Assembly (NCBI GenBank): GCA_001664005.1
Contig: CP016093.1
Span: 1,805,001 to 1,869,000 of the forward strand
DNA length: 64,000 nt
From: Rhizobiales bacterium NRL2
GTDB lineage: Bacteria > Pseudomonadota > Alphaproteobacteria > Minwuiales > Minwuiaceae
Direction of reading: 5' to 3'
The translations under genes and the position numbers were made by a program. How positions within the stretch are numbered: position 1 is the stretch's first letter; every line of letters starts with the position of its first letter. This document shows, in pieces, positions 9,342 to 64,000 of this stretch. The notes under the pieces are model-generated. The model saw nothing but the letters and a program-made list of their open reading frames with translations. It searched no databases and was not told the DNA's origin.

Positions 9342-9511
9342 GCCGCCCCGTCGATCCCTCTGCCGCCGCTCCTCTGGCACGCCGCCCAACATCACGTGAA
9401 GCGGTGCTGCGGGCAAGGGGGCATGAGGGCCACGCGGCATCCGCGATTGACCTTTGCCCGGCCGTGCCCGAGATTCGCTGCATTGCGGAAAATCCTGAGC
9501 GGAGCGTCCTG

Positions 9512-10579
9512 TTGAACAGTTTTCCCGTCAAACCCGAGCTCGACTATGTCTTCGGCGACGCCCGTCCCGAAGGCGCCGCAACCATGGAGGTCGCGCCGGG
9601 CGTGCACTGGATCCGCATGGCGATCCCGATCCCGGGGCTGGACTACATCAATCTCTGGCTGCTGGAGGACGGCGATGGCTGGACCATCGTCGACACCGGC
9701 ATCAAGAGCCGGGACATCACGGCCTGGTGGGAGGAGATATTCGAGACCAAGCTGGCCGGCAAGCCGGTGAAGCGGGTGATCTGCACCCACTTCCACACCG
9801 ACCATGTCGGGCAGGCGGGCTGGCTGACCGACCGCTGGAACTGCATGCTGTGGATGTCTCTGGGCGAGTGGGCCTTCGGGCGCACCATGGCCCTGGACGT
9901 CGCCGAGCGCGTGCCGGAGGACGTTATCGACCACTACCGCCGCATCGGCTATTCGGAGGAAATGCTGGAGGCGTTGCGCGAGCGCGGATTCCATCGCGTC
10001 TCCAAGATGATGACGCCGATTCCGCGCGCGTTCCGGCGGCTGACCCACGAGCAGCGCTTCAAGATCGGCCCCAACACCTGGCGAGTCATCGTCGGCCGGG
10101 GCCATTCGCCCGAGCACGTGGCGCTGTTCTGCGAGAACCTGAACGTGCTGATCTCAGGCGACCAGGTCCTGCCGGCGATCACGCCGCATATCGGCGTCTA
10201 CCCGGCGGAGCCCGACGCCAACCCGCTGGCGCTCTACCTGGAGACGCTGGACAATTTCCGCCCGCTGCCGGACGACGTGCTCGTCCTGCCGGCGCACGGC
10301 GATCCGTTCCGCAACCTGCATGCCCGCATCAACTATCTGCAGGATCATCACCGGGCCCGGCTGAAGGCGCTGTGGCACGCCGCGCCGGAATGGGCCTCGA
10401 TCCGCGAGCTGCTGCCATACCTGTTCCGTCGCGAGCTGGGACCCGAAGACATGCCGCTCGCCTTCTCCGAGGCCATCAGCCATATCCACATGCTGATCGC
10501 CCGCGGCCGGATGGAGCGCCGGATGGGCGAGGACGGCGTCTACCGCTATCGCTCGGCCGGGCTGGACAAGGCCGCCTGA
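9512..10579 (+). CDS. MBL-fold metallo-hydrolase
   Basis: A 355-residue beta-lactamase-superfamily hydrolase. The metal motif is CTHFHTDHVGQAGW (about residue 91), with further ligands in GRGHSPEHV (about 197) and VLPAHGDPF (about 268). A C-terminal helical region (HAAPEWASIRELLPYLFRR) resembles that of MBL hydrolases fused to a winged-helix tail. The TTG at 9512 has GGAGCG five bases upstream and is preferred over the distant ATG at 9404; ATG 9584 is another option. The substrate is unknown. Divergent from pqqB. Confidence 0.85.
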   Translation: MNSFPVKPELDYVFGDARPEGAATMEVAPGVHWIRMAIPIPGLDYINLWLLEDGDGWTIVDTGIKSRDITAWWEEIFETKLAGKPVKRVICTHFHTDHVGQAGWLTDRWNCMLWMSLGEWAFGRTMALDVAERVPEDVIDHYRRIGYSEEMLEALRERGFHRVSKMMTPIPRAFRRLTHEQRFKIGPNTWRVIVGRGHSPEHVALFCENLNVLISGDQVLPAITPHIGVYPAEPDANPLALYLETLDNFRPLPDDVLVLPAHGDPFRNLHARINYLQDHHRARLKALWHAAPEWASIRELLPYLFRRELGPEDMPLAFSEAISHIHMLIARGRMERRMGEDGVYRYRSAGLDKAA

Positions 10580-21508: not shown

Positions 21509-21585
21509 GGGCCTGTAGCTCAACTGGTTAGAGCCGGCCGCTCATAACGGTCTGGTTGCAGGTTCGAGTCCTGCCGGGCCCACCA
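21509..21585 (+). tRNA. tRNA with CAT anticodon, probably tRNA-Ile(CAU)
   Basis: A complete 77-base cloverleaf: acceptor GGGCCTG pairs with CGGGCCC, D-arm with TAGCTC, anticodon loop CTCATAA (anticodon CAT at 21543-21545), T-arm GGTTCGAGTC and an encoded CCA end. The anticodon stem lacks the three G-C pairs of an initiator tRNA. The GGGCC acceptor start with a CTCATAA loop is characteristic of the lysidine-modified isoleucine tRNA, though elongator Met is not formally excluded. Its 3' end is the left boundary of the island. Confidence 0.9.
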
Positions 21586-21782
21586 TTTCTTCTCACACAC
21601 CCGCGCGTCCAGACTGCATGGGTGCGTGGGCGCGGCAATTCCCGGCCTTTGCGGGCTCCTTTGGCTGATCGCAAGGGCGCCAGAGACGGTTCTCCGGGGC
21701 CGCAGAGCCACTAAAAGGTCACGGGTCTCTGCGGTCCGATTTGGGCGTCCAAACCATCATTTTTGGGCATTGGGGGAAGCTC

Positions 21783-21809
<27 letters not shown>
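21580..21809. repeat. Left flanking direct repeat of the island (attL-like)
   Basis: About 230 bp, close to 90 % identical by eye to 59871-60102. It starts with CCACCATTTCTTCTCACAC, whose first six bases are the tRNA 3' end, and ends within the last codons of the serine recombinase. The best-conserved inner block includes CACTAAAAGGTCACGGGTCT and GGGCGTCCAAACCATCAT. Confidence 0.85.
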
Positions 21810-23580
<1,771 letters not shown>

Positions 23581-23588
<8 letters not shown>

Positions 23589-24252
23589 CGCCGTGGTCCT
23601 CGCGCGCCATGGTGATGTCGGTCTGCCGACCGCCCTGTTGCCGGTTCTGACCATGCCTGCTCGGACCTGCGCCTGCTTTCGTCGCATTCAGACCGAAGAA
23701 GCGCGGGCCGGACCAGTGGGCGCCAGTGATCGTGCGGGCGATGGATGTCAGCGAAGTGAATTGCTGGCCCTCGTAGATAAAGCCGCCCTCGACCACCTCG
23801 ACGACATGGCTGCGGCCCTGCCACTGCCGGATCAACCGGCTGCCGGGACGGAGGCGACGACGGCCAGAAGCTGCGCCCGCAGCGACCGGTGGAGCGTCAT
23901 TCACTACTTCCTCGCCGCTCCCGTTCGACCGCGCCAGTGCATCGAGGCGGCGGCGGGTCGCTGCCGTCAGCCCGCCTGACGCTTCGGCCTGCAGCAGCCA
24001 CGCAGCGTTGCATTCCAGCAGACGGCGGCTCAGTCCCTTTGGCGGCGGACGACGCCAGTGCCGCTGCCAGAGCACGGCAAGGTCATCGCGGGACAGGGCC
24101 CGGACGCAGGTCTCAACGTTGTCTGCAGACGACGGGGTGGATGGTGACGGCGTTGATCTCCTGCTCTGATCGCTTCGGCTCGATCTTGCGATCGTGTCGC
24201 GGGCGGCGACGTTGCCGTCGCCGCCCGCGCGGATGGTGTTGTCCCTTCGCAT
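23581..24252 (-). CDS. DUF2924 domain protein, recombinase-associated
   Basis: A 223-residue protein. The DUF2924 core includes LAVLWQRHWRRPPPKGLSRR, then RRLRPGSRLIRQWQGRSHVV and ARTITGAHWSGPRFFGL. DUF2924 genes regularly sit between a DUF3489 gene and a serine recombinase in Alphaproteobacteria, as here; they are thought to help the recombinase bind or choose direction, which is unproven. The start at 24252 is chosen for the MRRDNTIRAG N-terminus. The stop overlaps the recombinase start region. Confidence 0.85.
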
Positions 24253-24265
24253 GATCGGAGTGCCG

Positions 24266-24805
24266 TCAGTAGGCCATCGCGTCCGCGTTGGCCGGCAGCG
24301 TAGCCCGGTAGACACTGACGCCGTTGCCTTCCTTGGTGCGGCTCACCTCGATGCCGCGCTTCCGGAATCCGGTCAGCACTGCCCGGACACTGTGCGGCTG
24401 CCAGCCGGTGAACTGCACCATCTCGTCGATATCGGCGCCTTCGTCGCGCTGCAGCAGATCGAGGAGCTGTGCCTGCCGCGTGCCGGACCGGAAAAGCGGC
24501 TTAGCCGCGTCGTGGTTGTCACCTGCATTCGGGTCCGCGGTCGCCGCCTGCGGTGCCGCGTTCTCGTCGTCCCGGTCGCCGGCCTCAGTTGCGGCCGTTC
24601 CCACCGCTGCACGGCCGGCCTCGGTGAGGATCCAGACGTCATCCGCCGAGTGCTCGGCCAGGCCGCGGCGCTCCAGGGCCTGCAGCGTGGCAGTGAGCGC
24701 GCCGCCCTTCAGCGGCATGTCTTGCGGGAGCGGCAGCACCGAGCCGTCGGCACGTTCCGCCGCATTGGCGAGGATGGCGGTCTGCTTGTCATTGAGCTTC
24801 GTCAA
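24266..24805 (-). CDS. DUF3489 domain protein, recombinase-associated
   Basis: A 179-residue protein. It opens with a winged-helix-like region (KLNDKQTAILANAAERADGS ... ALERRGLAE) and ends with the DUF3489 core RQAQLLDLLQRDEGADIDEM, TGWQPHSVRAVLTGFRKRG. The TTG at 24805 with GGGAGA upstream gives the usual N-terminus. It is the first gene of the DUF3489-DUF2924-recombinase unit, probably a DNA-binding accessory factor (inference). Confidence 0.82.
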   Translation of the reverse strand: MTKLNDKQTAILANAAERADGSVLPLPQDMPLKGGALTATLQALERRGLAEHSADDVWILTEAGRAAVGTAATEAGDRDDENAAPQAATADPNAGDNHDAAKPLFRSGTRQAQLLDLLQRDEGADIDEMVQFTGWQPHSVRAVLTGFRKRGIEVSRTKEGNGVSVYRATLPANADAMAY

Positions 24806-24940
24806 GGTCGGTCTCCCTGGTTTCGTTACGCGCCGGCCCGACGCCGGCGCTGTCACCAGGACAAGCCCGGACCGCGATGCGGAGGCCGGGCCGGGGCCGG
24901 CCGCGCACACCCAGGCACCGCCGATCCCGAGAGCATGCAT

Positions 24941-27255: not shown

Positions 27256-27702
27256 ATGAGCCAGAATGATCAGCGCCGTGTCTTCGTGGCGCAAGCAGAA
27301 GGCAAGTCGCTACCGGAAATCGACATACTCAAGCTTCTTTCGTCGGCGGAGATCGACCTCGGTGCGGTAAAGTTTGTCGGCAGTGCAGGCGACCTTGAAA
27401 GTATGACCTCGAACGATGCTCTCGTGATAATCCTGCATGATGATGCGGGCGAGAGCGCGCTGCTAGATGCGGCGGCGTTCGCAGGCGCACAGAAAGGTGT
27501 CTGCAATATCGTCGGAATATGGGCGCCCGACCAGGCTCAGACCGGCATTCATCCCGCTGTGGCAAAATTCAGCACGGCACAAGTTCCGTGGGATGCAGAA
27601 AAGGTCAAAGGAGAGTTGGGCTCCGATTGCGAAAATGCCTTCCTGACGCCCGCAGGCGAAAATGCCGATCCGAATGAGGTTGAGCCGAATGAATGCGAAT
27701 AA
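27256..27702 (+). CDS. Unknown 148-residue protein in the nucleotide-modification operon
   Basis: The protein opens with a strand (RRVFVAQAEGK) and contains a Rossmann-like stretch NDALVIILHDDAGESALLDA, then an FAGAQKG helix and a NIVGIWAP strand. This resembles TIR-like or nucleoside-2-deoxyribosyltransferase-like alpha/beta folds, but no catalytic signature is certain. The tail is acidic. It overlaps the Nmad2 gene by 14 bp, so it belongs to that operon. Function unknown. Confidence 0.7.
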   Translation: MSQNDQRRVFVAQAEGKSLPEIDILKLLSSAEIDLGAVKFVGSAGDLESMTSNDALVIILHDDAGESALLDAAAFAGAQKGVCNIVGIWAPDQAQTGIHPAVAKFSTAQVPWDAEKVKGELGSDCENAFLTPAGENADPNEVEPNECE

Positions 27703-28354
27703 CCGTCCGCGGCGCCTCTACCGATATGTCATCGACCATGACAAGGGATTTGCGCCGAACCCGTTTTTCAAGGTCTGCACGCTGGCATGCTGCAAGCCAA
27801 AAATCAGGCAGTATGCCGAGATTGGAGATGTCATCGTTGGGTACGGTCCCGCCAAACACGGCCTCAGCCGCCAAATCATATACTGGATGTTAGTCGATGA
27901 GATTTCAAATTTCGACGATTATTGGCACGATCCACGATTTCGCAGCAAACGCCCGAAAATGGGCGGTTCTCTCATGCTGAGCTATGGCGACAATATCTAC
28001 CATCGCCATCAGGGCAGAGGCGATTGGATTCAGGAGCCATCATTTCATAGCGACCGAAACAGTCTCATTGGTGAGGGGAATCTGCGGCGCGACACAGCAA
28101 CGACCGACAAGGTGCTGATCGGTCGGGATTATGCCTATTGGGGATCGAACGGGCCGCGGCCACCAGATGTCTACCGTCCATTCGTCAAAACTGGCCGCGG
28201 TCATGAATACACGGTTGAAGATGAGGCGTTGAAAAAGGCCTTTATTGAATGGCTTCGAGGCCTGCCTGATCGCGGTCTGATCCATGATCCAGCCGACTGG
28301 ACACACGACAAGAAACTTCGCCGGATGATAGCCGCCGAGGTGCTCGCATGCTGA
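27689..28354 (+). CDS. Nucleotide modification associated domain 2 (Nmad2) protein
   Basis: A 221-residue protein matching the Nmad2 family: LYRYVIDHDKGFAPNPFFKV, CTLACCKPKIRQYAEIGDVI, then DEISNFDDYWHDPRFRSKRP. The family was predicted by Aravind and co-workers in gene neighbourhoods of modified-nucleotide metabolism in phages and bacteria; its chemistry is not established. The ATG at 27689 has GAGGTTGA upstream; two earlier in-frame ATGs lack that. It overlaps both neighbours and so is translated as part of a three-gene operon. Confidence 0.82.
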   Translation: MNANNRPRRLYRYVIDHDKGFAPNPFFKVCTLACCKPKIRQYAEIGDVIVGYGPAKHGLSRQIIYWMLVDEISNFDDYWHDPRFRSKRPKMGGSLMLSYGDNIYHRHQGRGDWIQEPSFHSDRNSLIGEGNLRRDTATTDKVLIGRDYAYWGSNGPRPPDVYRPFVKTGRGHEYTVEDEALKKAFIEWLRGLPDRGLIHDPADWTHDKKLRRMIAAEVLAC

Positions 28355-29667
28355 TCGAACGGTACGCAGCTTTTGTTGCGCGCACGGATCAATTTTCCGC
28401 AGAATATGGTGCGGACGTCATAGACGCCGCAGATCCGCGCGAAATTGCGATTTTCGGCCTAGCCAGCGAGATCGGCTCCGTCATTTCCGCCATAAAAAAG
28501 GAGTGGCTGAGAGAAGGCGGTGCATTGTCTTCACCGCTCGCCAAGGCAGAGTTGGAAGAAGAACTCGGCGATGCAATGTGGTACGCCTTCGCTCTTGCGC
28601 GGATTGAGGAAGCGGGACACAACCCGAACATTCTGATCTCTGATATTGAACACTTGCAATCAGAAGTAACCGACCCGAGCAAGCGTGGCGATCAGATTCG
28701 CCAGGTCCTGCCCCCAGATGATCTAGAAGATTTTCTGAATGGCGCTGAGATGTTCAAGAGGAATTCGCGGCGGACCCTGTCCGACTACCAGTCGTTGGCG
28801 TACAAAACCGCGCGAACCGATAAACATGTCCTCTTGCAGGTCTGCGCTGCTGTACTGACACAATTGTCTGCGCAATTAATGCGTCATTTGTTCCCTGAAA
28901 TCGAAACGAAACTGAATACGCAGTTGAAGGATCGCCCGATTGGTGTTGTTCTGGGAGAAATCGCTTGGCATCTGTGCGCAATCGCCTCGCTTTACGGCAT
29001 CGATATGGATGAGGTCGGAGCGAAGAATGTGGAGAAGGCGAAGGCTAGGCAAAACCATGGCAAGCCAACACCGCTCCATGATGCGAGCGCTCCAGACGGT
29101 CAGAAGTTTCCGCGGAATTTTGAGGTTGAGTTTCGCTCGGCCGACTCTGAGACGGTTGAAATATATTGGGAAGGAGCGCGCCGCGGCGACCCGCTGCGAG
29201 ATCAGTATTCGATCGAGGACGGATACCGGTTTCATGATGTTATCCATCTCGCAAATGTTGCGGTGCTGGGATGGTCGCCGGTCTTACGGGATCTTTTTAA
29301 GATCAAGCGCATAGGAAAGACCAAACTGGAGGAGGATGGCGGTCGGTCGGCGGTTGTGGAAGAACTCGTGATCAAGTTTATTCATTGGGAAGCTTCACGG
29401 CGCGCCAAAGAGCTGCACGGTGATTTGCGCGCATATGAGCGCCCACTTTTTCCAGACAACGAGGAAATCCCATTTTCGTTGCTCAAGGAGGTTCGCGAAC
29501 TCACGTTCGGACACGAAGTCTACAAGAATAAATATTGGGAGTGGGAGCGCGCCATTCGTGAAGGGTATCGCGTTTTCGAATTACTCAAACAGCATCGAGG
29601 CGGCTTCGTCATTGTCGACCTTGAGAGACGCGGTCTCGACTTTAAGCCATCTTCAGATACCTCTTAG
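28348..29667 (+). CDS. Double-MazG nucleotide pyrophosphohydrolase with MazG_C-type tail
   Basis: A 439-residue protein. Residues about 30-100 form a MazG domain with the metal-binding acids in LASEIGSVISAIKK and ELEEELGDAMWYAFALARIEE. A second, weaker MazG-like region (about 190-240) has LGEIAWHLCAIASLYGIDMD. The C-terminal part (about 270-400) with YRFHDVIHLANVAVLGWSP resembles the MazG_C family found with base-modification genes. The expected reaction is hydrolysis of a nucleoside triphosphate to monophosphate, perhaps a modified one. It overlaps Nmad2 by 7 bp and the convergent kinase-like gene by 4 bp. Confidence 0.82.
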   Translation: MLIERYAAFVARTDQFSAEYGADVIDAADPREIAIFGLASEIGSVISAIKKEWLREGGALSSPLAKAELEEELGDAMWYAFALARIEEAGHNPNILISDIEHLQSEVTDPSKRGDQIRQVLPPDDLEDFLNGAEMFKRNSRRTLSDYQSLAYKTARTDKHVLLQVCAAVLTQLSAQLMRHLFPEIETKLNTQLKDRPIGVVLGEIAWHLCAIASLYGIDMDEVGAKNVEKAKARQNHGKPTPLHDASAPDGQKFPRNFEVEFRSADSETVEIYWEGARRGDPLRDQYSIEDGYRFHDVIHLANVAVLGWSPVLRDLFKIKRIGKTKLEEDGGRSAVVEELVIKFIHWEASRRAKELHGDLRAYERPLFPDNEEIPFSLLKEVRELTFGHEVYKNKYWEWERAIREGYRVFELLKQHRGGFVIVDLERRGLDFKPSSDTS

Positions 29668-30782
29668 TGTGTCCCCAATTCTTCAACGATCCTTTGGTTC
29701 AGCCCCCAATTCGGCGGGTAGAATGGAGCGGGCAAACGTCCTGCGGGCCTGAACTTTTGTTTGATTCGTGATCGACCGGATAACCCTTTTATATCGGGGA
29801 AGATCACTCGGGCATATTTCGAGATCTCACAGAACAAGTTCTGGCAGTCAATGAGCTGCAGGGGACGACCCCACAGGTCAGAGAACTCGATTTCGAACAT
29901 GTCAAAATAGCGACCTTGGTTTGCCGACATATGTTGGATGATTTCCTCTGCTGTGACACCTTTTGTCGAAACGAAGCACTTGGATACGCCGTCCAAAGCG
30001 CCAGGGCCGGCCTTAACAAATTCCATTTCGGAGAATGATGTCAGTGGCCCATAATTCAAATCCGTGGCGAATTGATAGGCAAGGAAAGGTCCAATAGACG
30101 GCGCTGCAACCATAAGCGCAAATGCATCTCCCATTGATCGGCATTTCCTGAGACGGGCCGGGTAATCCTCTGCAATCATCCATTCCAACAATCTCAAATG
30201 GTTCGCATGTTTGGTACGATGACCAAACACCGATCCAGCCGACGGCATGATGTAGGCGGCCGAATAGTTCCGTTCGCCTGCGGATTGACGTTTCGAAAGC
30301 AGGCCGTCGAAGGCTCGGAAACTATAGCTTTCCCACGAGATCTCGCCGAGTTCGTTTTGGAGTGTTTCCCAAGTTCCAATGCGGTTGAAGATTTTAAACA
30401 ACAGTATACGAAAGAAACGATCTTCATCTGACCACTTACCCTCGTCGGTCCATATGACTCTATTGATGAGATATTGGCTCACACGGTCAGACGCTCTGTA
30501 GCTGTTGGTAAAACGGTACGAGGAGAGAACCAGGTCGTCGGAAACGCCCGGATCGTTCGCACCTTTCAGGCGCTGGAAAAAGACGCTTTGGCGTTTGGCT
30601 GCAAACCGCCAGTAGGCTTCAAAAACAGGTGTAGTTTCCAAGCTTACACCAGAAATTTTGATACTATTGAGCTTTTGTGAAACTCTGATTGCTGGTTGAT
30701 TCAAGCAAACAACTTCAAACAGATCGTCTTGACCGTAGGCCAGTCCAGCCTCCCATTGTCTTTGTCGTTTTACAGCCATCAT
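29664..30782 (-). CDS. 5-hmdU DNA kinase-like helical protein (HMUDK_hel / base hypermodification)
   Basis: A 372-residue protein. The region from about residue 55 on (EAYWRFAAKRQSVFFQRL, SSYRFTNSYRASDRVSQYLI, FFRILLFKIFNRIGTWETL) matches the helical domain found in 5-hydroxymethyl-dU DNA kinases and in the alpha-glutamyl/putrescinyl-thymine pyrophosphorylase group of phage hypermodification proteins. No P-loop kinase motif is visible, so it may be the stand-alone helical, DNA-glycosylase-like form. It is convergent with the MazG gene (4 bp overlap). ATGs at 30782 and 30779 are both possible starts. Confidence 0.78.
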   Translation of the reverse strand: MMAVKRQRQWEAGLAYGQDDLFEVVCLNQPAIRVSQKLNSIKISGVSLETTPVFEAYWRFAAKRQSVFFQRLKGANDPGVSDDLVLSSYRFTNSYRASDRVSQYLINRVIWTDEGKWSDEDRFFRILLFKIFNRIGTWETLQNELGEISWESYSFRAFDGLLSKRQSAGERNYSAAYIMPSAGSVFGHRTKHANHLRLLEWMIAEDYPARLRKCRSMGDAFALMVAAPSIGPFLAYQFATDLNYGPLTSFSEMEFVKAGPGALDGVSKCFVSTKGVTAEEIIQHMSANQGRYFDMFEIEFSDLWGRPLQLIDCQNLFCEISKYARVIFPDIKGLSGRSRIKQKFRPAGRLPAPFYPPNWGLNQRIVEELGTH

Positions 30783-33015: not shown

Positions 33016-33126
33016 CCGGAATCCCTTGAATTACATTTTTGTACTGCCATAGATCGGCTATTTAAAAAAAGTATATACTTTTTCTGACGTGAAGGCCTGA
33101 AATTCTGCCACGGGAATGGGTAGATT

Positions 33127-33158
33127 CCGTCGGTCCGTCGGTCCGTCGGTCCGTCGGT
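33127..33158. repeat. Tandem octamer repeat
   Basis: Four perfect head-to-tail copies of CCGTCGGT (32 bp), in a gap beside an IS-end remnant. Such a perfect short tandem array is likely to vary in copy number between strains. Confidence 0.8.
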
Positions 33159-33180
33159 CTGTTGGACTTCAACCCGTCTT

Positions 33181-33223
33181 TGGTCCGCCGGATCGTGGAG
33201 TTTTCCGGCTCTATCACGGTGAC
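33181..33223. mobile_element. IS3-type terminal remnant
   Basis: This 43 bp segment (begins TGGTCCGCCGGATCGTGGAG) matches the end of the broken IS3 element at 43794-43836 in the same orientation, and in inverse the one at 53429-53457. No transposase gene is attached, so an IS has been lost from here. It abuts the 3' end of the EamA gene. Confidence 0.6.
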
Positions 33224-34191
33224 AGACTGGAGCTCGTTCCGGTCGGTCGCGCTTCAGCGTCCCGGTTCGGCTTCCGGCGCCGCTCGCGATAGGTGATGTA
33301 GAGTCCCGAGACGACCACCACGGCTGAGCCGACCCAGGTCCATAGGTCGGGAATTTCGGCAAAAATTAGGTAGCCGAACAGGCCGGCAACGACGAGCTGG
33401 ATGTACGTGATCGGCGCCACAACCGACGCGAGGCTGTACTGGAAGGCCTTGACCACGAAGTACTGGCCGAAGCCGCCGAACACCCCGAGCAGGAAGTACA
33501 GGAACCAGTGCCAGGCCGAGACGGGCCAGACCCCCGGCTCGACCACGAAGAAGAGACCGGCGGCCACGGAGCCGACCAGCGCCGTGTAGGTGATCGTCGT
33601 CTCGGGAGTGTCGTCCGCGGCGATCTTCCGCGTGAGGATCTGGTAGACGGAGAACATGAACATGTTGGCGACGACCAGGAGCATCGCCCAGTGGAAGCCG
33701 GCGCCGCCGGGCTGGATGATGATCAGCGCTCCTGCGAAACCGACCGCGACCGCGGCCCAGCGCCTCGACCCGACCTTCTCGCTCAGAAAGGGTACGGAAA
33801 GCGCGGTGACCACGATCGGCGTCGTGAAGACGATTGCCATGGCCACCGCGAGTTCAAGGTAACGCAGCGCGTAGACGAAGAATGCCGTCGAGACGAACAG
33901 CAGCAGCGACCGCACCAGCTGGATGCCCGGTCGTTGGCTTCGGAACAGGCCGGTGCCGTGCCACGGCAGGAAGACGACGATCATGACCAGGAGATGACCG
34001 GCATAGCGGGCCCACACGATCTGGCCGCTGGGGTAGAAGTCGTTGAGGTACTTGACGCCGGCATTCATGGCCGGCAGGACCAAGCTGGCCAGGAGCATGA
34101 ATGCAATGCCCACGAGATTCTCGCGCGGCGTCGGATCGGCCCGGAAATGATGCCTCGGGCGGGCGGCGCCCCTGGATCGCGGCATGCTCAT
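33214..34191 (-). CDS. EamA/DMT family transporter, island copy
   Basis: A 325-residue, ten-segment permease with two EamA repeats. Recognisable parts are NAGVKYLNDFYPSGQIVWARY, AIVFTTPIVVTALSVPF and the second-half FQYSLASVVAPITYIQLV. These transporters export amino acids or other metabolites. The gene is a close duplicate of 62880-63854: about the first 130 residues are identical, while the C-terminal third differs at many positions. The duplication extends at least 130 bp upstream of the start. Confidence 0.88.
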   Translation of the reverse strand: MSMPRSRGAARPRHHFRADPTPRENLVGIAFMLLASLVLPAMNAGVKYLNDFYPSGQIVWARYAGHLLVMIVVFLPWHGTGLFRSQRPGIQLVRSLLLFVSTAFFVYALRYLELAVAMAIVFTTPIVVTALSVPFLSEKVGSRRWAAVAVGFAGALIIIQPGGAGFHWAMLLVVANMFMFSVYQILTRKIAADDTPETTITYTALVGSVAAGLFFVVEPGVWPVSAWHWFLYFLLGVFGGFGQYFVVKAFQYSLASVVAPITYIQLVVAGLFGYLIFAEIPDLWTWVGSAVVVVSGLYITYRERRRKPNRDAEARPTGTSSSLSP

Positions 34192-34584
34192 GACTCACGA
34201 GCCGTGAACGGCACGGAAAATTCGGCTGAATAGCCCATCGTTTCTGGTCTCCCCGCTCATCGATAACGCGCAAGAAGGCCGCCAGGCCATGCCGAATATG
34301 CAGAGGCACCGGACATCCGGTTGTCAGGCAGGCCTTGGCTGAAGGCCCGGCCGATGCAATGTGCGCCAGGTTGGCTTTCCGACCGGCTCTCAGCGGCGCT
34401 TGAATGATCGTCGAACCTTTTCGACGACAGAAGGGCAGGCTCGTTCCGCCCGAATGTCACCGTCGTTTCCGGGCCTTCGCGGCCCGGGTTGGCCCGGATC
34501 CGGGCCATGACCAAAAGTTCCTTGCTCCGACCATCCCGACCGGCTGGGTCCCGCCACAATGGGTTCACGGCCTGAGCGAATGGA
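34192..34584. other. Intergenic stretch, partly duplicated
   Basis: About 390 bp between divergent EamA and dehydrogenase genes. Positions 34192-34330 are nearly identical to 63855-63993 and form the upstream part of the EamA duplication. No gene is recognised in the rest. Confidence 0.6.
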
Positions 34585-55415: not shown

Positions 55416-56414
55416 TCAGTCGCCGTCTCCGTTAGCCTCTGCCTTCTGCCGGAGACGATCGAAGAACTCTGCGCTCAAACGGTCGATCTCCGTCTGCATC
55501 GCGGGCGAGACCAGGGACACCTCAGGCTTCGCTCGCATCAGACGGTCCTTTTCGATGGCGTAGCGTCGTTCCAGGTCGCGCCGTGTCATGCCGGCATAGT
55601 CCATCATCAGCCCAACAGCCTCCCCGTCACGCCAGCGGAACCGGCGCGGGAGAACTGCGTCTGTGAGGGTCGCGAATAAGAGCGCTGCGCAGATTCCCTC
55701 GCCTTTCGGCCGGTTCTTCCTGGCCTTGCTCGTCTTGTCCCAAAGAGCCGACTGCATCAAAGCCAGGTTCCGCAGTTCCGCCACGTGCTCAAAGACCGCG
55801 ACCTCTTCGGGAAACTCCGGCCCGTTGATCCACACCTCCGTTGTCTGGTGGTTGAGCACGATGTCGTCGGGGTGCGGCAGGAGGTCGGGTGGCGGCAGAC
55901 CCCGCCGGCGATGCGCCTCGATCGCCGCCTCCCCCTCGCGCTTGAGCGCCGACAGGCGGACATAGCGGTCGATCAGCCGTTGCTGGTGCTCCTTTTCCTT
56001 CGCTTCGATATCGTCAAGCGCATTCTTCAGGGCGATCCGGTTGCCCTTCAGGCCGAGATTGTGCTGGGCGCGACGGAGCAGTTGAGCGGTCGGCAGCTCA
56101 ACCTCCTGGCCATTCTCCCGGAACTTCACGGGACGATAGGCCTCCTCCTGCAGGAAGACGTCCGTCGGCGCGTCCGAGAGCTGAATGGGTTTCGGCTTCG
56201 GCTTTTTCGGCCGGCCACGCGGATTGCCGGACTGGCCTTTCCTGAACCGCGTCGACCTGGGCGGCTTGCCGAAGCCGACCTCGTAGTCGTCGCCGTTACC
56301 GTCATTCGGGCGATCGCCCTCCGGCTTGGCCCGACCTTGATCTTCGCCTGATCGCGCGCGCCAGCGTTGCGCGGGGCGCCGACGCTTCTGGCCGTCATCC
56401 CGACCGCCGCTCAT
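55416..56414 (-). CDS. DUF5681 domain protein
   Basis: A 332-residue protein. The N-terminus is a basic, low-complexity region, then the DUF5681 signature YEVGFGKPPRSTRFRKGQSG and NPRGRPKKPKP, a motif that recurs in phage and island proteins beside methyltransferases. A long coiled-coil region follows. It overlaps the stop of the ParB-methyltransferase gene by 4 bp (ATGA), so the two are one unit. Function unknown; the AT-hook-like GRPKK suggests DNA binding. Confidence 0.82.
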   Translation of the reverse strand: MSGGRDDGQKRRRPAQRWRARSGEDQGRAKPEGDRPNDGNGDDYEVGFGKPPRSTRFRKGQSGNPRGRPKKPKPKPIQLSDAPTDVFLQEEAYRPVKFRENGQEVELPTAQLLRRAQHNLGLKGNRIALKNALDDIEAKEKEHQQRLIDRYVRLSALKREGEAAIEAHRRRGLPPPDLLPHPDDIVLNHQTTEVWINGPEFPEEVAVFEHVAELRNLALMQSALWDKTSKARKNRPKGEGICAALLFATLTDAVLPRRFRWRDGEAVGLMMDYAGMTRRDLERRYAIEKDRLMRAKPEVSLVSPAMQTEIDRLSAEFFDRLRQKAEANGDGD

Positions 56415-57901
56415 TTCGCGGCCTCCCGGTCGGCACGGACGGCTTTGGTGCGCGGGTCCTCATCCTCGCCGGTCTCGGCGTGGTTGTCACCGGAACCAAG
56501 CTCCTCTGCGGGCCCGGGCTCGATCTCGGCCAGTCGTTCCTCCTCGACGTCCTCGAAGCGTGCGCCGGTTGCCGCGAGGGTGGGTTGCTTGCCGGTGATG
56601 CGTTCCCAGCGCCGGACGATGGTGTCGCAATAGGCCGGGTCGAACTCGAGAAGCCGGGCCTTGCGGCCGACCTGCTCGGCGGCGATCAGCGCCGTGCCCG
56701 AGCCGCCAAAGGGGTCGAGGACGATGTCGCCTCGTCTGGAGCAATCCCGGATGGCGTCCGCCACCAGGGCGACAGGCTTGACCGTCGGGTGCATGGCAAG
56801 GTCGGCGTCCCGGCTGGCGCCAAAGCTGTTGATGCCGGCATAGTCCCAGACATTGGTCCGGTAGCGCCCGGTCTCGCCGAGGCCGAAGCTGTTCACATGG
56901 GGACCACTGCCCACCTTGAAGACGAAGACCAGCTCGTGCTTGGAGCGATAGAAGGCGCCCATGCCGCCATTGGTCTTGTTCCAGACGCAGAGGTTCTTCA
57001 TCTCGTCGAAGACCGTGCGCCCGGCGGCCAGCAGTTCGCCCATGTGCCGCCAGTCCATGCAGACGAAGGCGATGGCGCCATCGCGGCAGCGGTCAGCCGC
57101 CGCGCCCAGGGTCTCGGTCAGGAAGGCAGTGAAGGCCTCCTCCGACATCTCGCCCGAGGCGAAGGCGAACTCCCGGTGGCGCACCTTGCCGAGGCCGGAG
57201 ACATGGCCGTCGATCGGCACGTTGTAGGGCGGGTCGGTGAAGACGAGATCGACCTCCTCGCCGTCCAGCAGGAGATCGTAGTCAGCCGGCGATCTGGCAT
57301 CGCCGCAGAGCACGCGATGGCGCCCGCAGCGCCATAGATCGCCCGGACGGCTGATCGCGGTCTTCGGGAGCGGTGGGATCTCGTCCTCGGGGCCGGCCGG
57401 TCCCGGCACGTCTCGTTCGCTCGCGGCATCGAGGGTAAAATCGATCTCGGCCAGCGAGAAGCCGGTGATCTCCACGTCGAAGTCGAGATCGACCAGGGCC
57501 TGCAGCTCGATCGCCAGCAGCTCCTGGTCCCAGCCCGCGTTCAGGGCGAGCTTGTTGTCGGCCAGGATATAGGCTCTGCGTTCGGCCTCGTTCATGTGCG
57601 AGAGGCGGACGGTCGGCACCTCTCTCATTCCCAGCTGCTTCGCCGCCAGCACGCGGCCATGGCCGGCGATGATGGTGTCGTCGTCGGCGATCAGCACGGG
57701 GTTGGTGAAGCCGAAGCGGTCGATGCTGTCGGCGATCTGGCGGATCTGTCGTCGCGAATGGGTCCGGGCATTGCCCTCATAGGGGCGAAGCTCCTCGATC
57801 CGGCGCATGGTGATCGTGGACGCGGCCTTCTCCCGGCTGCCGCCCCGGGCCTGGCGCGTCCGCCTGGCGCCGCCTGCGCGGCGCTGGGTTCTGGTGGTCA
57901 T
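56411..57901 (-). CDS. ParB/Srx-domain DNA methyltransferase fusion
   Basis: A 496-residue protein. Residues about 30-130 are a ParB/sulfiredoxin-type nuclease-like domain (RRIEELRPYEGNARTHS, TIIAGHGRVLAAKQLGMREV). Residues about 190-470 form a beta-class amino-methyltransferase: VFTDPPYNVP (motif IV) first, then LDPFGGSGTALIAAEQ (motif I) near the end. Such fusions methylate adenine-N6 or cytosine-N4 in short sites and are common orphan methyltransferases in alphaproteobacterial islands. ATG 57901 follows GGAGAA; ATG 57919 is an alternative. No cognate restriction gene is seen. Confidence 0.88.
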   Translation of the reverse strand: MTTRTQRRAGGARRTRQARGGSREKAASTITMRRIEELRPYEGNARTHSRRQIRQIADSIDRFGFTNPVLIADDDTIIAGHGRVLAAKQLGMREVPTVRLSHMNEAERRAYILADNKLALNAGWDQELLAIELQALVDLDFDVEITGFSLAEIDFTLDAASERDVPGPAGPEDEIPPLPKTAISRPGDLWRCGRHRVLCGDARSPADYDLLLDGEEVDLVFTDPPYNVPIDGHVSGLGKVRHREFAFASGEMSEEAFTAFLTETLGAAADRCRDGAIAFVCMDWRHMGELLAAGRTVFDEMKNLCVWNKTNGGMGAFYRSKHELVFVFKVGSGPHVNSFGLGETGRYRTNVWDYAGINSFGASRDADLAMHPTVKPVALVADAIRDCSRRGDIVLDPFGGSGTALIAAEQVGRKARLLEFDPAYCDTIVRRWERITGKQPTLAATGARFEDVEEERLAEIEPGPAEELGSGDNHAETGEDEDPRTKAVRADREAAK

Positions 57902-58025
57902 ATTCGGGTTCTCCGACATTGCGTTGGCGTTCTCGGAGCACGACCGGTCACGTTCTGTTCCGGTCGCGCCCTTCATCCACGCATTCGCTATCGGAGCGCG
58001 TTTGTCAAAGCGGGCTATCCCAAAA

Positions 58026-58088: not shown

Positions 58089-58132
58089 CCGTCTATGAGA
58101 GGCCTATTAGAAGCCTATCAGAGGTCTATTAA
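58089..58132. repeat. Iteron-like tandem 11-mers
   Basis: Four head-to-tail 11 bp units: CCGTCTATGAG, AGGCCTATTAG, AAGCCTATCAG, AGGTCTATTAA. All share CTAT at the same place and spacing is exactly one helical turn. They lie in the gap between the divergent ParB-methyltransferase and MucR genes, next to the 58026 inverted repeat, a layout like a plasmid origin or partition site. Confidence 0.65.
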
Positions 58133-58640
58133 GGGTTTCAGGGATTCCGCCTCTCCACCGAAACATCCCCGGATTTTTTTTCGAGGTGTGGACAATCAGG
58201 AGGCGAAACAGCCCCGATTCCGACTGCGAATTGCTGGCATCGAAGCTCAATTCGGCGAATCACTTGGCGAGGCGGCGCAATCGGCCGGCGTTGAAACCGA
58301 TCTCCAGGTGGGTTCGTTTACCGGTGTCCGGCGACTGAATGACCCATTCAAGTGCTTCATGAAGCAACCAACGGAGCACCGCGTGATCCTGATCTCTTCG
58401 AACGATGTCTCGTCGAAGGCGGCCACCGTTAGAATTTGAAGAGTGAGCGATAGACGTACTACGTCGATTGATGAGTACGCGCTTCACGACTGGAACGGTG
58501 GTCAGTCTTTTCAATAAAATCGCCGCAAGGCACTATTGTCATCGGTCTGTCGATCGCTATTTTCCCGGCAAGGGCAAGCAGGCCTTTAAAATCCACAAGT
58601 GTCCCGACTGTCTTCGGGCCAGATCAGAGAGTGAGTATTG
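58133..58640. other. Rest of the methyltransferase-MucR intergenic region
   Basis: About 500 bp with short open frames only and no recognised gene. The end (58600-58640) would hold the MucR promoter. Nothing else is seen. Confidence 0.4.
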
Positions 58641-59084
58641 ATGGACAAGAACGACGCCGCGAACGAGCCAACCAGCCGCCAGGACCTGATGGAGATGACC
58701 TCCGAGATCGTGTCGGCCTATGTCGGCAATAACATCGTGCCGGCCGACGAGGTGCCGAACCTGATCAGGCGCACCTTCGACGCCCTGGATGCCGCGGATA
58801 AAGGCGAAGAGGCGGCAGCTGTGGAGCCACAGAAGCCCGCAGTTCCGATCAAGCGCTCGGTCACGCCTGAGCACCTGATCTGTCTCGAGGACGGCAAGAA
58901 GCTGAAGATGCTGAAGCGTTATCTCCGGACCAATTACGACATGACCCCGGAGCAATATCGCGCGAAGTGGAACCTGCCGGCCGACTATCCGATGGTCGCG
59001 CCGAACTACGCCAAACAGCGCGCCGAAATGGCCAAGTCCATCGGGCTCGGCCGCAAGGGACGCCAGGCCAAGGCCGCCAGATAG
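58641..59084 (+). CDS. mucR: MucR/Ros family zinc-finger regulator
   Basis: A 147-residue alphaproteobacterial MucR. After a polar N-terminus come the oligomerisation segment (LMEMTSEIVSAYVGNNIVP) and the DNA-binding part VTPEHLICLEDGKKLKMLKR, HLRTNY-equivalent YLRTNYDMTPEQYRAKWNLP and YPMVAPNYAKQRAEMAKSIG. In this protein the zinc-finger cysteines are reduced (only LICLEDG remains), as seen in some Ros-like proteins. MucR binds AT-rich DNA and silences acquired genes; this copy may control the island. Confidence 0.88.
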   Translation: MDKNDAANEPTSRQDLMEMTSEIVSAYVGNNIVPADEVPNLIRRTFDALDAADKGEEAAAVEPQKPAVPIKRSVTPEHLICLEDGKKLKMLKRYLRTNYDMTPEQYRAKWNLPADYPMVAPNYAKQRAEMAKSIGLGRKGRQAKAAR

Positions 59085-59201: not shown

Positions 59202-59389
59202 GTCCCGCACTCGTCCCGGAAAACGGCAGATCCATCCCGCAATCATCGATTTCTGTCCCGGATGACGCTGGCGCCGTCCCACTTTCGTCCCGCAAAAGCG
59301 CGAAGCTGTCCCACTTAACGCCTCTTTCGTCCCACATCCGTCCCGCTTCCGCGTTCATTTGTCCCGGTTCAGGCAGCACCTGTCCCGCA
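59202..59389. repeat. Helically phased array of GTCCC motifs (11 copies)
   Basis: Eleven copies of GTCCCG, GTCCCA or ATCCCG in one orientation, with CCC starting at 59204, 215, 236, 257, 278, 289, 310, 331, 342, 363 and 384. Steps are 11, 21, 21, 21, 11, 21, 21, 11, 21 and 21 bp, i.e. one or two helical turns, so all motifs face the same side. The mix of 11 and 21 is not a multiple of three, so this is not a coding repeat. Confidence 0.85.
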
Positions 59390-59606: not shown

Positions 59607-59831
59607 TTCCCTGGGGAATTCGCTGCTTCCGGAATCAGCGTTCCCTGCAGGCATTCACGGATTCCCTGCAAATTGGTTTCGGCTCCCTGTTCCGGGACTT
59701 GAATTCCCTGTTCCTGGTCACAGGGAATTTGGCCGAAAAGGAACCGGATTTCAGGAGGTTACGGCAACCAAATGCGCCCCACCAGGCCCGAAAAAGACGA
59801 AAATTCCCTGTTCTTCCCTGTAAACAGGGAC
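59607..59831. repeat. Array of TTCCCTG motifs, partly 21 bp phased
   Basis: TTCCCTG or close variants at CCC positions 59609, 643, 664, 685, 706, 806 and 816, with an inverted CAGGGAA at 59721-59727 and CAGGGA at 59825-59830. The central four are exactly 21 bp apart, i.e. two helical turns. Several gaps in the array hold half-sites such as TTCC. Confidence 0.7.
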
Positions 59832-59870
59832 CCACGATGCAAGAGACCGGTTCCGTGGAGACTGCCGACA

Positions 59871-60102
59871 CCACCATTTCTTCTCACACCCCCTCACGTC
59901 CAGACTGCAAGGGCGCGAGGACGCGGCAATTCCGGGCCTTTGCGGGCTCCCTTCGCGGATCGCAAGGGCGCCAGAGACGATTCCCGTGGTCCGTAGAGTC
60001 ACTAAAAGGTCACGGGTCTCTGCGGTGCGATTTGGGCGTCCAAACCATCATTCTTGGGAATTTGGTGGAAAGCTCTCAGGTCTCGAAACCGAGAAGCTGC
60101 CG
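59871..60102. repeat. Right flanking direct repeat of the island (attR-like)
   Basis: Partner of 21580-21809, starting CCACCATTTCTTCTCACAC without the rest of the tRNA. The two copies share the 3' end of the recombinase gene, so the repeat is longer than a simple core site. Confidence 0.85.
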
Positions 60103-60111
60103 CTGCTGATC
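60076..60111 (-). pseudogene. 3' remnant of a second serine recombinase gene
   Basis: Reading the minus strand gives ADQQRQLLGFET and a stop, against WAAQRQLLGFET at the end of the intact recombinase (21783). No further upstream similarity is seen, so only the last dozen codons survive. Confidence 0.6.
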
Positions 60112-60222
60112 GGCCCCGGCGATTGGTCCGGGTGCAATGTTTGTGCATGGGCGGCTTTGCCGCCAAGCGGGCTGGCCGGTGAAGCGGAGCGGAGCCTGAC
60201 GACCAGGGCGGATTGCTCCGGG

Positions 60223-62631
60223 TCAGTCCGGACCGGTCTTGCCGCGGAAACATGCGCCCTTGTCGATCAGCGCCGCGCACTGCGCTTCGGACCAGCCCAG
60301 CCAGTCGGCCAGGACCGCCTCGGAGTGCTCCCCCAGCAACGGCATCCTGTGGGTGTCCCGGCAGGGTGTCTTCGAGAGGCGAATGGGCGGACCGCCGACG
60401 GGAATGTGCCCCTGGAACGGATGCGCCACCTGGGTGATCTGCTCACGCGCCGCAAGCTGTTCGTTGGCGGACACGTCAGGGATGTTCGCCACGCGCGCCG
60501 CCGGCAATCCGGCATCGACAAGAAAGCGTTCGGCCTCTTCGGCATCGATCGCCGCGGCCCACTCGCCGACGAGACGATCGAACATCGCGGCCCCGGCATC
60601 CGTCGGCTGTCCGATCCCCGCCGCATCGAACAGCCGCGCCGTTTCGGAGTCGCTCAGGACGCCGATATGCAGGAAGCGCCTGTCGCGGCAGGGAAACGTG
60701 TTCAGCCGGCCGTCGACCCGATTGCGGATTCCACATCTCGATTGTGAAACACCCGAGCCCAGGTATTCGGGAATTGCGTCCATCAGGAACGTCGTCGCGG
60801 CGTCGAGCATCGAGACGTCGACACACAGCCTGGCGCCACTGCGCCGGCGCGACCGAAGCGCCATCAGTGCGCCGATCGCCCCGTGTACTGCCGCCAGATA
60901 GTCCCCGATGATGGTGCCGGTCAGTGTTGGCGAACCTTGCGTAGCGCCGGTCAGTTCCATGAACCCGGACAGCGCCTGCGCAATCGGGTCGTAGGATCCC
61001 CGGTCGCGCCACGGCCCGTCCTGCCCGAATCCGGAGATGCGCACCAGACTGAGTTGCGGATTGATCTCCCGCAGCCGCTCCGGGCCGAATCCCATGTCCT
61101 CGAGCACGCCGGGGCGGAAGTTCTCGACCAGAACGTCGGCCTTGGCTGCGAGAGCGGACAGAACTTCAAGCCCTTCCGCCTTCCGGAGATCAAGGACGAT
61201 GCTCCGCTTGGAACGGTTCAACGTGCTGGCGAACATGGCGTCCGGCTCGCCGAGCAGGCGGTCGATCAACCGCGTACCGTCGCCGATGCCCGGCGGTTCC
61301 ACCTTCACGACATCGCCGCCGAGATCCGCCAGTATCTGCGTGCCGTGCGGGCCGGCCACATAGCGCGTGAGGTCCAGGATCCGGACACCCTTCAGCGGCC
61401 CGCCGGCCAGTGCTGCGCGGTCTTCGGCGGTGTCATGGCCGCGGTTGTCCGGCCCGTCGTGCTTCGCGGCGGCGTCGGTCGACCGGCTCAGCCACGCGCC
61501 GAGAACCGCGTCGGTGTCGGCGCCCGGGACCGGAACGCGATAGGCGCGCGGCAGGGCCGCATCCGAATAGCGGATCGCCGGTCCGGCGACGGAAAAGCGC
61601 CCGCGGCCCGGATACTCCACGTCGACGATATGCCCGCGATGGCGGAGTTGTTCGTTCGCACAGACATCCGCGATGCTGGCGATGCGCGCGATGGCCAGCC
61701 GGGCGTCGAGGAGTCTCCGCTCGACCTCTTCCAGGTCGAGGCCGGATGTCCACTCCGTAATGATGCCGTCCACGGTGGCCTCGTGCGACTTGCGGGCCTC
61801 GATCCGGCTGAAGCGCTCGTCCGCGGCGATGTCCGGCATCCCCATGGCCTTGCAGAGCTTGACGAACTCCGGATCGCTCCAGGCGACGATGTAGATGAAC
61901 TTGCCATCGCGGCAGGGGTAGGCATTGCAGGGCACGGAAACCGGGTTCCTGTTGCCCCGCCGGGTCCGTACGTGGCCGGTCAGGCGGTATTCGGGAATGA
62001 AATGCATCAACAGGCTGGCGGCCACTTCGAGCATCGATATGTCGACCCGCTGGCCGAGGCCCGTCGTGGCCCGGGCTTCGAGCGCCGCGGTCACGCCGAT
62101 GACCCCGTGCAGCGCCGAGAAGTACTCGAAGATCTGTGTGCCGCAGGGCGTGGGCGGCCCCTCCGGGTCGCCGGTCAGCTCCATGAGGCCGCTCAACGCC
62201 TGGACGACCGAGTCGCCGCCCGGACGGTCGCGCCAGGGGCCGCTCTGGCCAAAGCTGGATATCCGCGTGAGGACAAGGCGCGAATTGATCCCATGCAGGC
62301 TTTGCCAGGACAGCCCCAGCGTCTCCAGCGTGCCGGGCCGCAGATCCTCCAGTACCACGTCGGCCCGCGCCGCCAGCTCGGCCAGCTCCGCCTTGCCGCG
62401 TTCCGACGACAGATCCAGGGCGACGCTTTTCTTGCCGCGGTCCAGCGTGGCGCCGATGGCCCCCTCGGGGTCGACTGTCAGCCTGCCGCCGAGACGCGAA
62501 CCGGCTTCCACCTCGGGCGCCTGGACCTTGACGACCTCGGCGCCGCTGTCGGCGAGCATCAGGGCGGCGTGCCGCCCCGCGACCCCCGTCGCCAGCTCGA
62601 GTATGCGAACGCCGCGGAGCGGCGCATTCAT
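60223..62631 (-). CDS. Fused double CaiB/BaiF-type CoA-transferase
   Basis: An 802-residue protein made of two tandem class III CoA-transferase units, about residues 1-380 and 400-800; one unit is normally about 400. Unit 1 begins LRGVRILELATGVAGRHAAL and unit 2 LKGVRILDLTRYVAGPHGTQ. Where the catalytic Asp is expected, unit 2 has GTIIGDYLAAVHGA but unit 1 has GTQIFEYFSALHG, i.e. Glu. So one half may be inactive or altered. A 12-codon frame with a GGGGGAGGAG site (62628-62666) ends in ATGA over this start codon, suggesting coupling; ATG 62685 is an alternative start. Substrate unknown. Confidence 0.85.
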   Translation of the reverse strand: MNAPLRGVRILELATGVAGRHAALMLADSGAEVVKVQAPEVEAGSRLGGRLTVDPEGAIGATLDRGKKSVALDLSSERGKAELAELAARADVVLEDLRPGTLETLGLSWQSLHGINSRLVLTRISSFGQSGPWRDRPGGDSVVQALSGLMELTGDPEGPPTPCGTQIFEYFSALHGVIGVTAALEARATTGLGQRVDISMLEVAASLLMHFIPEYRLTGHVRTRRGNRNPVSVPCNAYPCRDGKFIYIVAWSDPEFVKLCKAMGMPDIAADERFSRIEARKSHEATVDGIITEWTSGLDLEEVERRLLDARLAIARIASIADVCANEQLRHRGHIVDVEYPGRGRFSVAGPAIRYSDAALPRAYRVPVPGADTDAVLGAWLSRSTDAAAKHDGPDNRGHDTAEDRAALAGGPLKGVRILDLTRYVAGPHGTQILADLGGDVVKVEPPGIGDGTRLIDRLLGEPDAMFASTLNRSKRSIVLDLRKAEGLEVLSALAAKADVLVENFRPGVLEDMGFGPERLREINPQLSLVRISGFGQDGPWRDRGSYDPIAQALSGFMELTGATQGSPTLTGTIIGDYLAAVHGAIGALMALRSRRRSGARLCVDVSMLDAATTFLMDAIPEYLGSGVSQSRCGIRNRVDGRLNTFPCRDRRFLHIGVLSDSETARLFDAAGIGQPTDAGAAMFDRLVGEWAAAIDAEEAERFLVDAGLPAARVANIPDVSANEQLAAREQITQVAHPFQGHIPVGGPPIRLSKTPCRDTHRMPLLGEHSEAVLADWLGWSEAQCAALIDKGACFRGKTGPD

Positions 62632-62666
62632 TGCCCGAGGCCCGCGCGCGTGATTCCTGAAGACAT
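62628..62666 (-). other. Possible 12-codon leader frame for the CoA-transferase gene
   Basis: MSSGITRAGLGQ preceded by GGAGGAG at ideal spacing, with its TGA overlapping the ATG of the CoA-transferase (ATGA). It may be a leader peptide that couples translation, or a coincidence of a GC-rich region. Confidence 0.3.
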
Positions 62667-62879
62667 CGTTTGGCTCCTCCCCCATCCGCTGTCATTCCGA
62701 CAGGGCCAACCTAGCACTGGCGTTCCGGAACGACCCCGGTGACGTTTTCAGACCTCATGCCCGAAAAGGGTACAGCTTCGGAGTTTCTGCAGGTGCCGTT
62801 CTTGTCCATCGGAGGGGCCGGGGAGAGCGCCTTGAGCCTTCGATCCGGGCCAGTTGGTCGCGGCGTTCTCCGGTTCTGA
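62632..62879. other. Gap with no gene
   Basis: Apart from the leader frame, nothing recognisable; it separates the CoA-transferase from the EamA gene on the same strand. Confidence 0.4.
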
Positions 62880-63854
62880 TCAGGGCGGGCCGGCGCCCGG
62901 TGCGACCGGACTCGCGTCCTCGTCCCGGACCACCTGCCGGCGCCGCTCACGATAGGTGATGTAGAGCCCCGAAGCGACCACCACTGCCGAACCGATCCAG
63001 GTCCAACGGTCCGGAACCTCGGCAAAGATGAGGTAGCCGAACAGGCCGGCGATGACGAGCTGGACGTAGGTAATCGGCGCCACCACCGAGGCGAGGCTGT
63101 ACTGGAAGGCCTTGATCACGAAGTACTGGCCGAAGCCGCCGAACACCCCGAGCAGGAAGTACAGGAGCCAGTGCAAGGCGGAGACGGGCCAGATGCCCGG
63201 TTCGACCAGGAAAAAGAGACCGGCGGCCACGGCGCCGACTAGCGCGGTGTAGGTGATCGTCGTTTCGGGCGTGTCGTCCGCAGCGATCTTGCGCGTCAGG
63301 ATCTGGTAGACGGAGAACATGATCATGTTGGCGACAACCAGGAGCATCGCCCAGTGGAAGCCGGCGCCGCCGGGCTGGATGATGATCAGTGCCCCGGCGA
63401 AGCCGACCGCGACCGCGGCCCAGCGCCTGGGCCCGACCTTCTCGCTCAGAAAGGGTACGGAAAGCGCGGTGACCACGATCGGTGTCGTGAAGACGATTGC
63501 CATGGCCACCGCGAGTTCAAGGTAACGCAGCGCGTAGACGAAGAATGCCGTCGAGACGAACAGCAGCAGCGAGCGCACCAGCTGGATGCCCGGTCGTTGG
63601 CTTCGGAACAGGCCGGTGCCGTGCCACGGCAGGAAGACGACGATCATGACCAGGAGATGACCGGCATAGCGCGCCCACACGATCTGGCCGCTGGGGTAGA
63701 AGTCGTTGAGGTACTTGACGCCGGCATTCATGGCCGGCAGGACCAGGCTGGCCAGGAGCATGAATGCAATGCCCACGAGATTCTCGCGCGGCGTCGGATC
63801 GGCCCGAAAATGATGCCTCGGGCGGGCGGCGCCCCTGGATCGCGGCATGCTCAT
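62880..63854 (-). CDS. EamA/DMT family transporter, second copy
   Basis: A 324-residue ten-segment permease, duplicate of 33214-34191. About the first 130 residues are identical; after VPFLSEKVG the two diverge steadily (VVANMIMFSVYQ against VVANMFMFSVYQ, PVSALHWLLYFL against PVSAWHWFLYFL) and the last 20 residues are unrelated. The upstream 130 bp are also shared. It lies just outside the right island boundary. Confidence 0.88.
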   Translation of the reverse strand: MSMPRSRGAARPRHHFRADPTPRENLVGIAFMLLASLVLPAMNAGVKYLNDFYPSGQIVWARYAGHLLVMIVVFLPWHGTGLFRSQRPGIQLVRSLLLFVSTAFFVYALRYLELAVAMAIVFTTPIVVTALSVPFLSEKVGPRRWAAVAVGFAGALIIIQPGGAGFHWAMLLVVANMIMFSVYQILTRKIAADDTPETTITYTALVGAVAAGLFFLVEPGIWPVSALHWLLYFLLGVFGGFGQYFVIKAFQYSLASVVAPITYVQLVIAGLFGYLIFAEVPDRWTWIGSAVVVASGLYITYRERRRQVVRDEDASPVAPGAGPP

Positions 63855-64000
63855 GACTCACGAGCCGTGAACGGCACGGAAAATTCGGCTGAATGGCCCA
63901 TCGTCTCTGGCCTCCCCGCTCATCGATAACGCGCAAGAAGGCCGCCAGGCCATGCCGAATATGCAGAGGCACCGTACATCCGGTTGTCAGGCAGGCCTCG
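63855..64000. repeat. Upstream part of the EamA duplication, running to the window edge
   Basis: Nearly identical to 34192-34336, including GATAACGCGCAAGAAGGCCG. The repeat boundary on this side lies beyond the window or near 63995, where the two copies part (GGCCTCG here, GGCCTTGG there). Confidence 0.75.

Follow-up and report, generated by a model that had tools for sequence, protein, structure and literature searches.

The tRNA-Met island and its genes

The stretch of DNA analysed here (the window; 64,000 nucleotides, positions 1805001-1869000 of a 4.70 Mb single-contig genome) carries a 38.3 kb island, island 1, at the 3' end of a tRNA-Met gene (Table 1). Window positions 59862-60106 share 87.8% identity with 21571-21813, a segment that covers the tRNA-Met gene end together with the sequence flanking a large serine recombinase gene on its 3' side. 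The alignment therefore places the crossover at 21585, the last base of the tRNA, and at 59876, and island 1 thus extends from 21586 to 59876. The gene order is tRNA, recombinase (3' end outward), DUF2924, DUF3489, cargo, DUF5681, methyltransferase, mucR where present, a row of GTCCC motifs (array 1), a row of TTCCCTG motifs (array 2) and att, and this polarity was constant across all array 1 copies examined together with their recombinase. Array 1 occupies the recombinase-distal end, and its placement just inside the island end, proposed earlier from the sequence alone, is thereby supported.

Table 1 Features of island 1, the tandem island behind it and further array 1 copies (window coordinates unless marked as genome).
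Feature	Position	Strand	Remarks
tRNA-Met (CAT), target gene	21509..21585	+	Ends CCCACCA at the crossover placed by right-end junction homology
Large serine recombinase	21783..23687	-	Resolvase and Recombinase domains; extra C-terminal helical region, predicted helix-turn-helix
DUF2924 protein	23581..24315	-	Next to recombinase gene
DUF3489 protein	24266..24940	-	Weak MarR-like winged-helix resemblance, below cut-off
DUF5681 protein	55416..56414	-	Right-end gene module
DNA methyltransferase	56411..57976	-	Weak ParB-N-like N-terminus
11-bp repeats, CTATNAGAGGC-like	58093..58129	+	Upstream of methyltransferase
mucR/ros regulator gene	58638..59084	+	117 bp separate its end from array 1; island A lacks it
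Array 1, eleven [G/A]TCCC sites	59202..59386	+	Unit consensus YYGTCCCRS
Array 2, TTCCCTG sites	59607..59831	+	About 200 bp from array 1
Right-end att half-site GAGACCGGTTCCGTGGAGACTGCCGACACCACCA	59843..59876	+	Last base is the crossover at the tRNA-like CCA
Left-end sequence of second, tandem island	59877..60106	+	Homologous to 21586-21813; recombinase gene lost
Array 1 copy A	genome 677086-677270	-	Full array, same genome
Array 1 copy D	genome 3110985-3111169	+	Full array, all eleven sites exact GTCCC
Array 1 half copy C	genome ~1885956		Keeps only the final section of the array

Sequence and fold matches both place the recombinase in the large serine family, whose domains it has, and its scores against the IS607 and Ccr-like models fell far below the cut-offs. 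The extra helices at the C-terminus of its structure model are compatible with a helix-turn-helix. The DUF2924 family partially matches the RAMA DNA-binding domain (PMC11342252), and the DUF2924 structure model gave no significant fold match in the PDB. Elsewhere in island 1, Nmad2, MazG-C and 5-hmdU DNA kinase genes form a nucleotide hypermodification-like cluster (27256-30782), and a perfect tandem 8-mer, TCCGTCGG, is present in 4.2 copies at 33126-33159.

Island 1 is followed by a second island that shares its tRNA-Met target (window 59877-64000, continuing through genome positions 1869000-1886490). Its recombinase is cut down to about the last codons, and a half copy of array 1 (copy C) sits at its right end. 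An EamA transporter region is duplicated, with one copy per tandem island (33193-34335 and 62858-63998, 92.7% identity). The same arrangement occurs at a tRNA-Pro in D and at a tRNA-Ser in A; the tandem islands at B (the window copy) and D would fit integration having happened more than once. Recombinases of islands A, B, D and E and of one island in G197, another species of the genus, adjoin a tRNA, and the island right ends match the tRNA end (in island D, CGACCAACTCGTCT is found in both). Insertion is exactly at the tRNA 3' end, with a matching opposite end, at Met, Pro, Ser and Val targets.

Layout and conservation of array 1

The sequence-only reading described eleven GTCCC motifs in one orientation, spaced by 11 and 21 bp only and phased on one face of the helix. 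Eleven sites are indeed present, ten of them exact (starts at 59202, 59213, 59255, 59276, 59287, 59308, 59329, 59340, 59361 and 59382) and one a degenerate ATCCC at 59234. All lie on the + strand, in steps of 11, 21, 21, 21, 11, 21, 21, 11, 21 and 21 bp, and the phase coherence bears out the single helical face, with a vector strength of R = 0.99 at a period of 10.6 bp and 0.96 at 10.5 bp, against 0.09 at 10.0 bp and 0.36 at 11.0 bp. Such an arrangement was far above what randomized sequence produced. The observed chain of 10 GTCCC compares with at most 3 when the window was simulated with a second-order Markov model, and the best chain among all 5-mers in those simulations reached at most 4. 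The three-motif pattern matched 6 times, where dinucleotide shuffles predict 0.06 matches.

Two further full copies in the same genome (A and D) allowed the array to be compared between islands, and the step order is identical in A, B and D. Between A and B, 2/55 motif bases differ, as against 67/130 spacer bases (Fisher p = 3e-11); between A and D, the counts are 1/55 and 67/130, and neither comparison shows an indel over the 185 bp. A conserved motif, diverged spacers and the lack of indels together show, at the level of sequence comparison, that the GTCCC motif and its exact spacing are maintained by selection. Array 1 is therefore functional and almost certainly a row of protein-binding sites; the protein-binding character proposed earlier is supported, and the phasing persists in homologous islands. 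The A-B substitutions are distributed without bias over the codon positions (26/28/23). The earlier view that coding, IS ends or CRISPR do not explain the pattern is also supported. Simple tandem duplication was ruled out because the spacers are unlike one another while the spacing is kept. GTCCC arrays with a 21-bp period do arise elsewhere as tandem coding-like repeats, and array 1 might by analogy be a product of chance or an inactive tandem-repeat relic. However, its chain length far exceeds the simulations, its spacers are not repeats of one another, and its motif is more than 10-fold better conserved than the spacer between A and B; with the paralogues already contradicting it, we regard a chance or relic origin as highly improbable.

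Array 1 is kept in other species of the genus (G197, G385 and G082, with a partial copy in G386; in G082, read by eye, one 21-bp unit has been lost), and the evidence on it comes from few independent copies. Class-wide scans found the exact layout in this genus only, and a class-wide scan for four GTCCC at 21 bp likewise gave the array in this genus only, the other matches resembling tandem coding repeats or chance. In viral contigs, GTCCC arrays were simple tandem or coding-like repeats, none of them like that of the window. Two G197 islands with array 2 and closely related recombinases lack array 1, which is therefore no general requirement.

A second array phased to the att half-site

Array 2 had been passed over in the sequence-only reading, though it is widespread and we judge it more important than the GTCCC array. 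Its sites in the window start at 59607, 59619 (one mismatch), 59641, 59662, 59683 (one mismatch) and 59704, followed by an inverted copy at 59721 and by a distal trio at 59804, 59814 and, inverted, 59825 (one mismatch). It ends about 12 bp from the att half-site of the island.

A genome scan with the distal trio alone as bait, by which the spacing of the trio is conditioned and the upstream sites and att are not, found the trio at no fewer than 118 genome loci, mostly in Alphaproteobacteria, with some labelled Elusimicrobiales, Acidobacteria, Planctomycetota and others. The trio pattern gave 13 matches in 50 genomes, against 0 for the control. Upstream of the trio, a layout recurs with sites near -162, -141, -120 and -98 and an inverted site near -81. 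Over 113 nonredundant loci, these upstream sites number 282 against about 29 expected, and their phase has a vector strength of 0.51 at 10.5 bp, 0.57 at 10.75 bp and 0.58 at 11 bp. Downstream, many loci have GAGACnGGTTCG..GACTG..CCACC(A/G)CCA in common and then diverge; the att ACTG was found in 56 loci, of which 49 have it at +52 to +59 and three more have it one helical turn farther out, at +64 to +66. Conserved genes cluster on the body side of array 2, although at some loci, as in the tandem junctions of this genome, the recombinase is located on the far side of att. The shared layout, the att sequence downstream and the body-side genes identify array 2 as the inner arm of the island terminus, and its phasing to att strongly suggests that it forms an att arm. 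On neither side of array 2 did a search of the 118 loci listed reveal a phased 5-mer array with at least five members. A literature search, with subscription journals mostly outside its scope, yielded no description of either array.

Some array 2 loci are organised differently. In L193, L213, L242, L246 and L289, contigs labelled as Elusimicrobiales or other phyla, the array stands without a tRNA-like att, and in L289 a recombinase and DUF2924 nearby suggest, from gene content, a related element with another target. At L196, L212, L220 and L267, the order is different and compact: array 2 directly follows the stop codon of the recombinase gene, with a methyltransferase divergent from DUF2924-recombinase and, in some, DUF5681.

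Plasmid iterons are phased direct repeats, and the in-phase 21-bp repeats of array 1 resemble them. Array 1 could accordingly be a replication or partition site, serving the replication or segregation of the excised circular island, in which a large intergenic stretch would lie beside attP; the weak ParB-N-like N-terminus of the methyltransferase points the same way. Yet an iteron origin would have an initiator gene and DnaA boxes beside its repeats, and neither was found here: no replication initiator or partition ATPase occurs among the genes common to the islands, and the only DnaA-box-like words are scattered, carry one mismatch and are never common to the copies. The phasing of array 2 to att would also be needless for an origin. 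We consider a replication or partition site distinctly unlikely.

Candidate binding proteins

A DUF2924 match is present in 31/49 array 2 genomes, compared with 11/50 unselected relatives (p = 4e-5), and absent from 18/49, some of which are incomplete; the recombinase gene runs up to array 2 in several loci. On these associations we favour the recombinase module as the binder of array 2. The distribution of array 1 follows that of a methyltransferase with at least 85% identity (islands A, B and D and those of G197 and G385) rather than the recombinase clade, and array 1 is missing from the two G197 islands mentioned above, so the protein that binds it may be part of the methyltransferase/DUF5681 module found in this genus.

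The arrays may, alternatively, belong to different systems, array 2 being a recombination arm and array 1 serving the methyltransferase and DUF5681 as methylation target, in autoregulation or in packaging. The co-occurrence with the methyltransferase agrees with such a division, as does the spacing of the two arrays, where a 4-5 bp difference between islands A and B marks them as separate units that are not locked in mutual phase. Against it, array 1 always occurs together with array 2 and att, G082 has both arrays and no close methyltransferase match in its draft, and the copy number is small. Two separate systems seem unlikely. As to the module itself, the C-terminal half of the DUF5681 protein (55416-56091) has diverged strongly from one island copy to another, whereas its N-terminal half aligns well at the DNA level. 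The 11-bp repeats also differ in sequence between island copies with both flanks conserved (window; L026, about 7750-7950; L024, about 9500-9800 reverse), as if an operator and its regulator were diversifying.

MucR, named earlier as a candidate binder, was rejected because island A keeps array 1 without mucR. The same island weighs against a broader possibility, namely that the arrays form an operator or silencing region at which a cooperative regulator shuts off transcription at the island end. Phased operators are common, mucR adjoins array 1 in islands B and D, and the methyltransferase gene is preceded by a separate set of 11-bp repeats. However, the interval from array 1 to the island end contains no gene start in A, B or D, and the island silencing offered by the sequence-only reading is for that reason not supported. 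The GTCCC motif is moreover rich in G+C, unlike MucR/H-NS-type targets. An operator or silencing function is accordingly unlikely.

Proposed role in island recombination

Overall, we favour a reading in which an island protein binds cooperatively, wraps the island end and controls recombination, the arrays acting as an accessory arm on a serine-integrase att; we give it a probability of roughly 0.5. Silencing, MucR and a replication origin are disfavoured as explanations. The earlier suggestion of a role in recombination directionality fits the surroundings (a tRNA att, a serine recombinase and array 2 phased to att), and the role itself is what we infer from them.

Array 2, in which several sites keep a conserved geometry in phase with one another and with att, lies by the right att half-site at the tRNA CCA end and would be bound cooperatively by an island protein, with the C-terminal helix-turn-helix region of the recombinase, DUF2924 or DUF3489 as candidates. 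The bound array would be wrapped into a nucleoprotein complex at attR/attP. Array 1, with its eleven sites on one helix face, would extend the integrase-distal arm of the large-serine-recombinase island inward, and a factor linked to the methyltransferase/DUF5681 module may bind it. The resulting complex could decide if the recombinase acts at all and which way the reaction runs, for instance by permitting or blocking attL x attR excision, and the arrays probably help the island recombinase to assemble at the island end. More tentatively, and with rather less confidence than an even chance would warrant, a widespread class of large-serine-recombinase islands may use a complex att composed of the phased TTCCCTG array, extended here by GTCCC, that is bound by the recombinase C-terminus or by DUF2924/DUF3489 in a synaptic or directionality complex.

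If this is true, a major group of tRNA-targeting islands would use a nucleoprotein complex on arm sites to control its serine integrase. Such control is known for tyrosine integrases, resolvases and IS607 and is not known for large serine integrases. It would also give DUF2924 and DUF3489, genes of unknown function, a testable role, open a new way of steering integrase directionality in genome engineering and yield a sequence signature by which island ends could be recognised in many genomes.

Comparison with known systems

In bacteriophage lambda, a tyrosine integrase acts with IHF and Xis on arm-type sites at a complex attP. The island ends may work alike, with core-phased accessory sites on one arm and a wrapped complex, and the two are not homologous, the enzyme at the tRNA end here being a serine recombinase. 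Tn3/gamma-delta res is alike in that a serine recombinase is controlled by phased accessory sites; those of res are variants of the core dimer site, whereas here they are short direct repeats of another sequence than the core.

The nearest precedent is IS607/IS1535, which has in common with the islands a recombinase of the serine family and short, helically phased direct repeats near the element end, and which might share with our model a cooperative filament that pairs the ends. In IS1535, the helically phased end is filled cooperatively by the serine transposase TnpA; the transposon is small, has no tRNA target and carries four 9-bp motifs at about 20-60 bp from its end (PMC6188088). The islands differ in having a large recombinase, a length of about 34-38 kb and two arrays over about 600 bp, one of them with inverted copies, and no IS607-type TnpA with an N-terminal DNA-binding domain was found here.

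With the large serine integrases (phiC31, Bxb1, A118/LI and SPbeta, and Ccr of SCC), the island enzyme has in common the catalytic and recombinase domains and a short att half-site. The serine integrases studied use att sites of 40-50 bp and need no auxiliary DNA (PMC3783163), which speaks against the accessory-arm model; the islands are set apart from them by phased, conserved arrays outside the half-site and by a recombinase with an extra C-terminal helical region.
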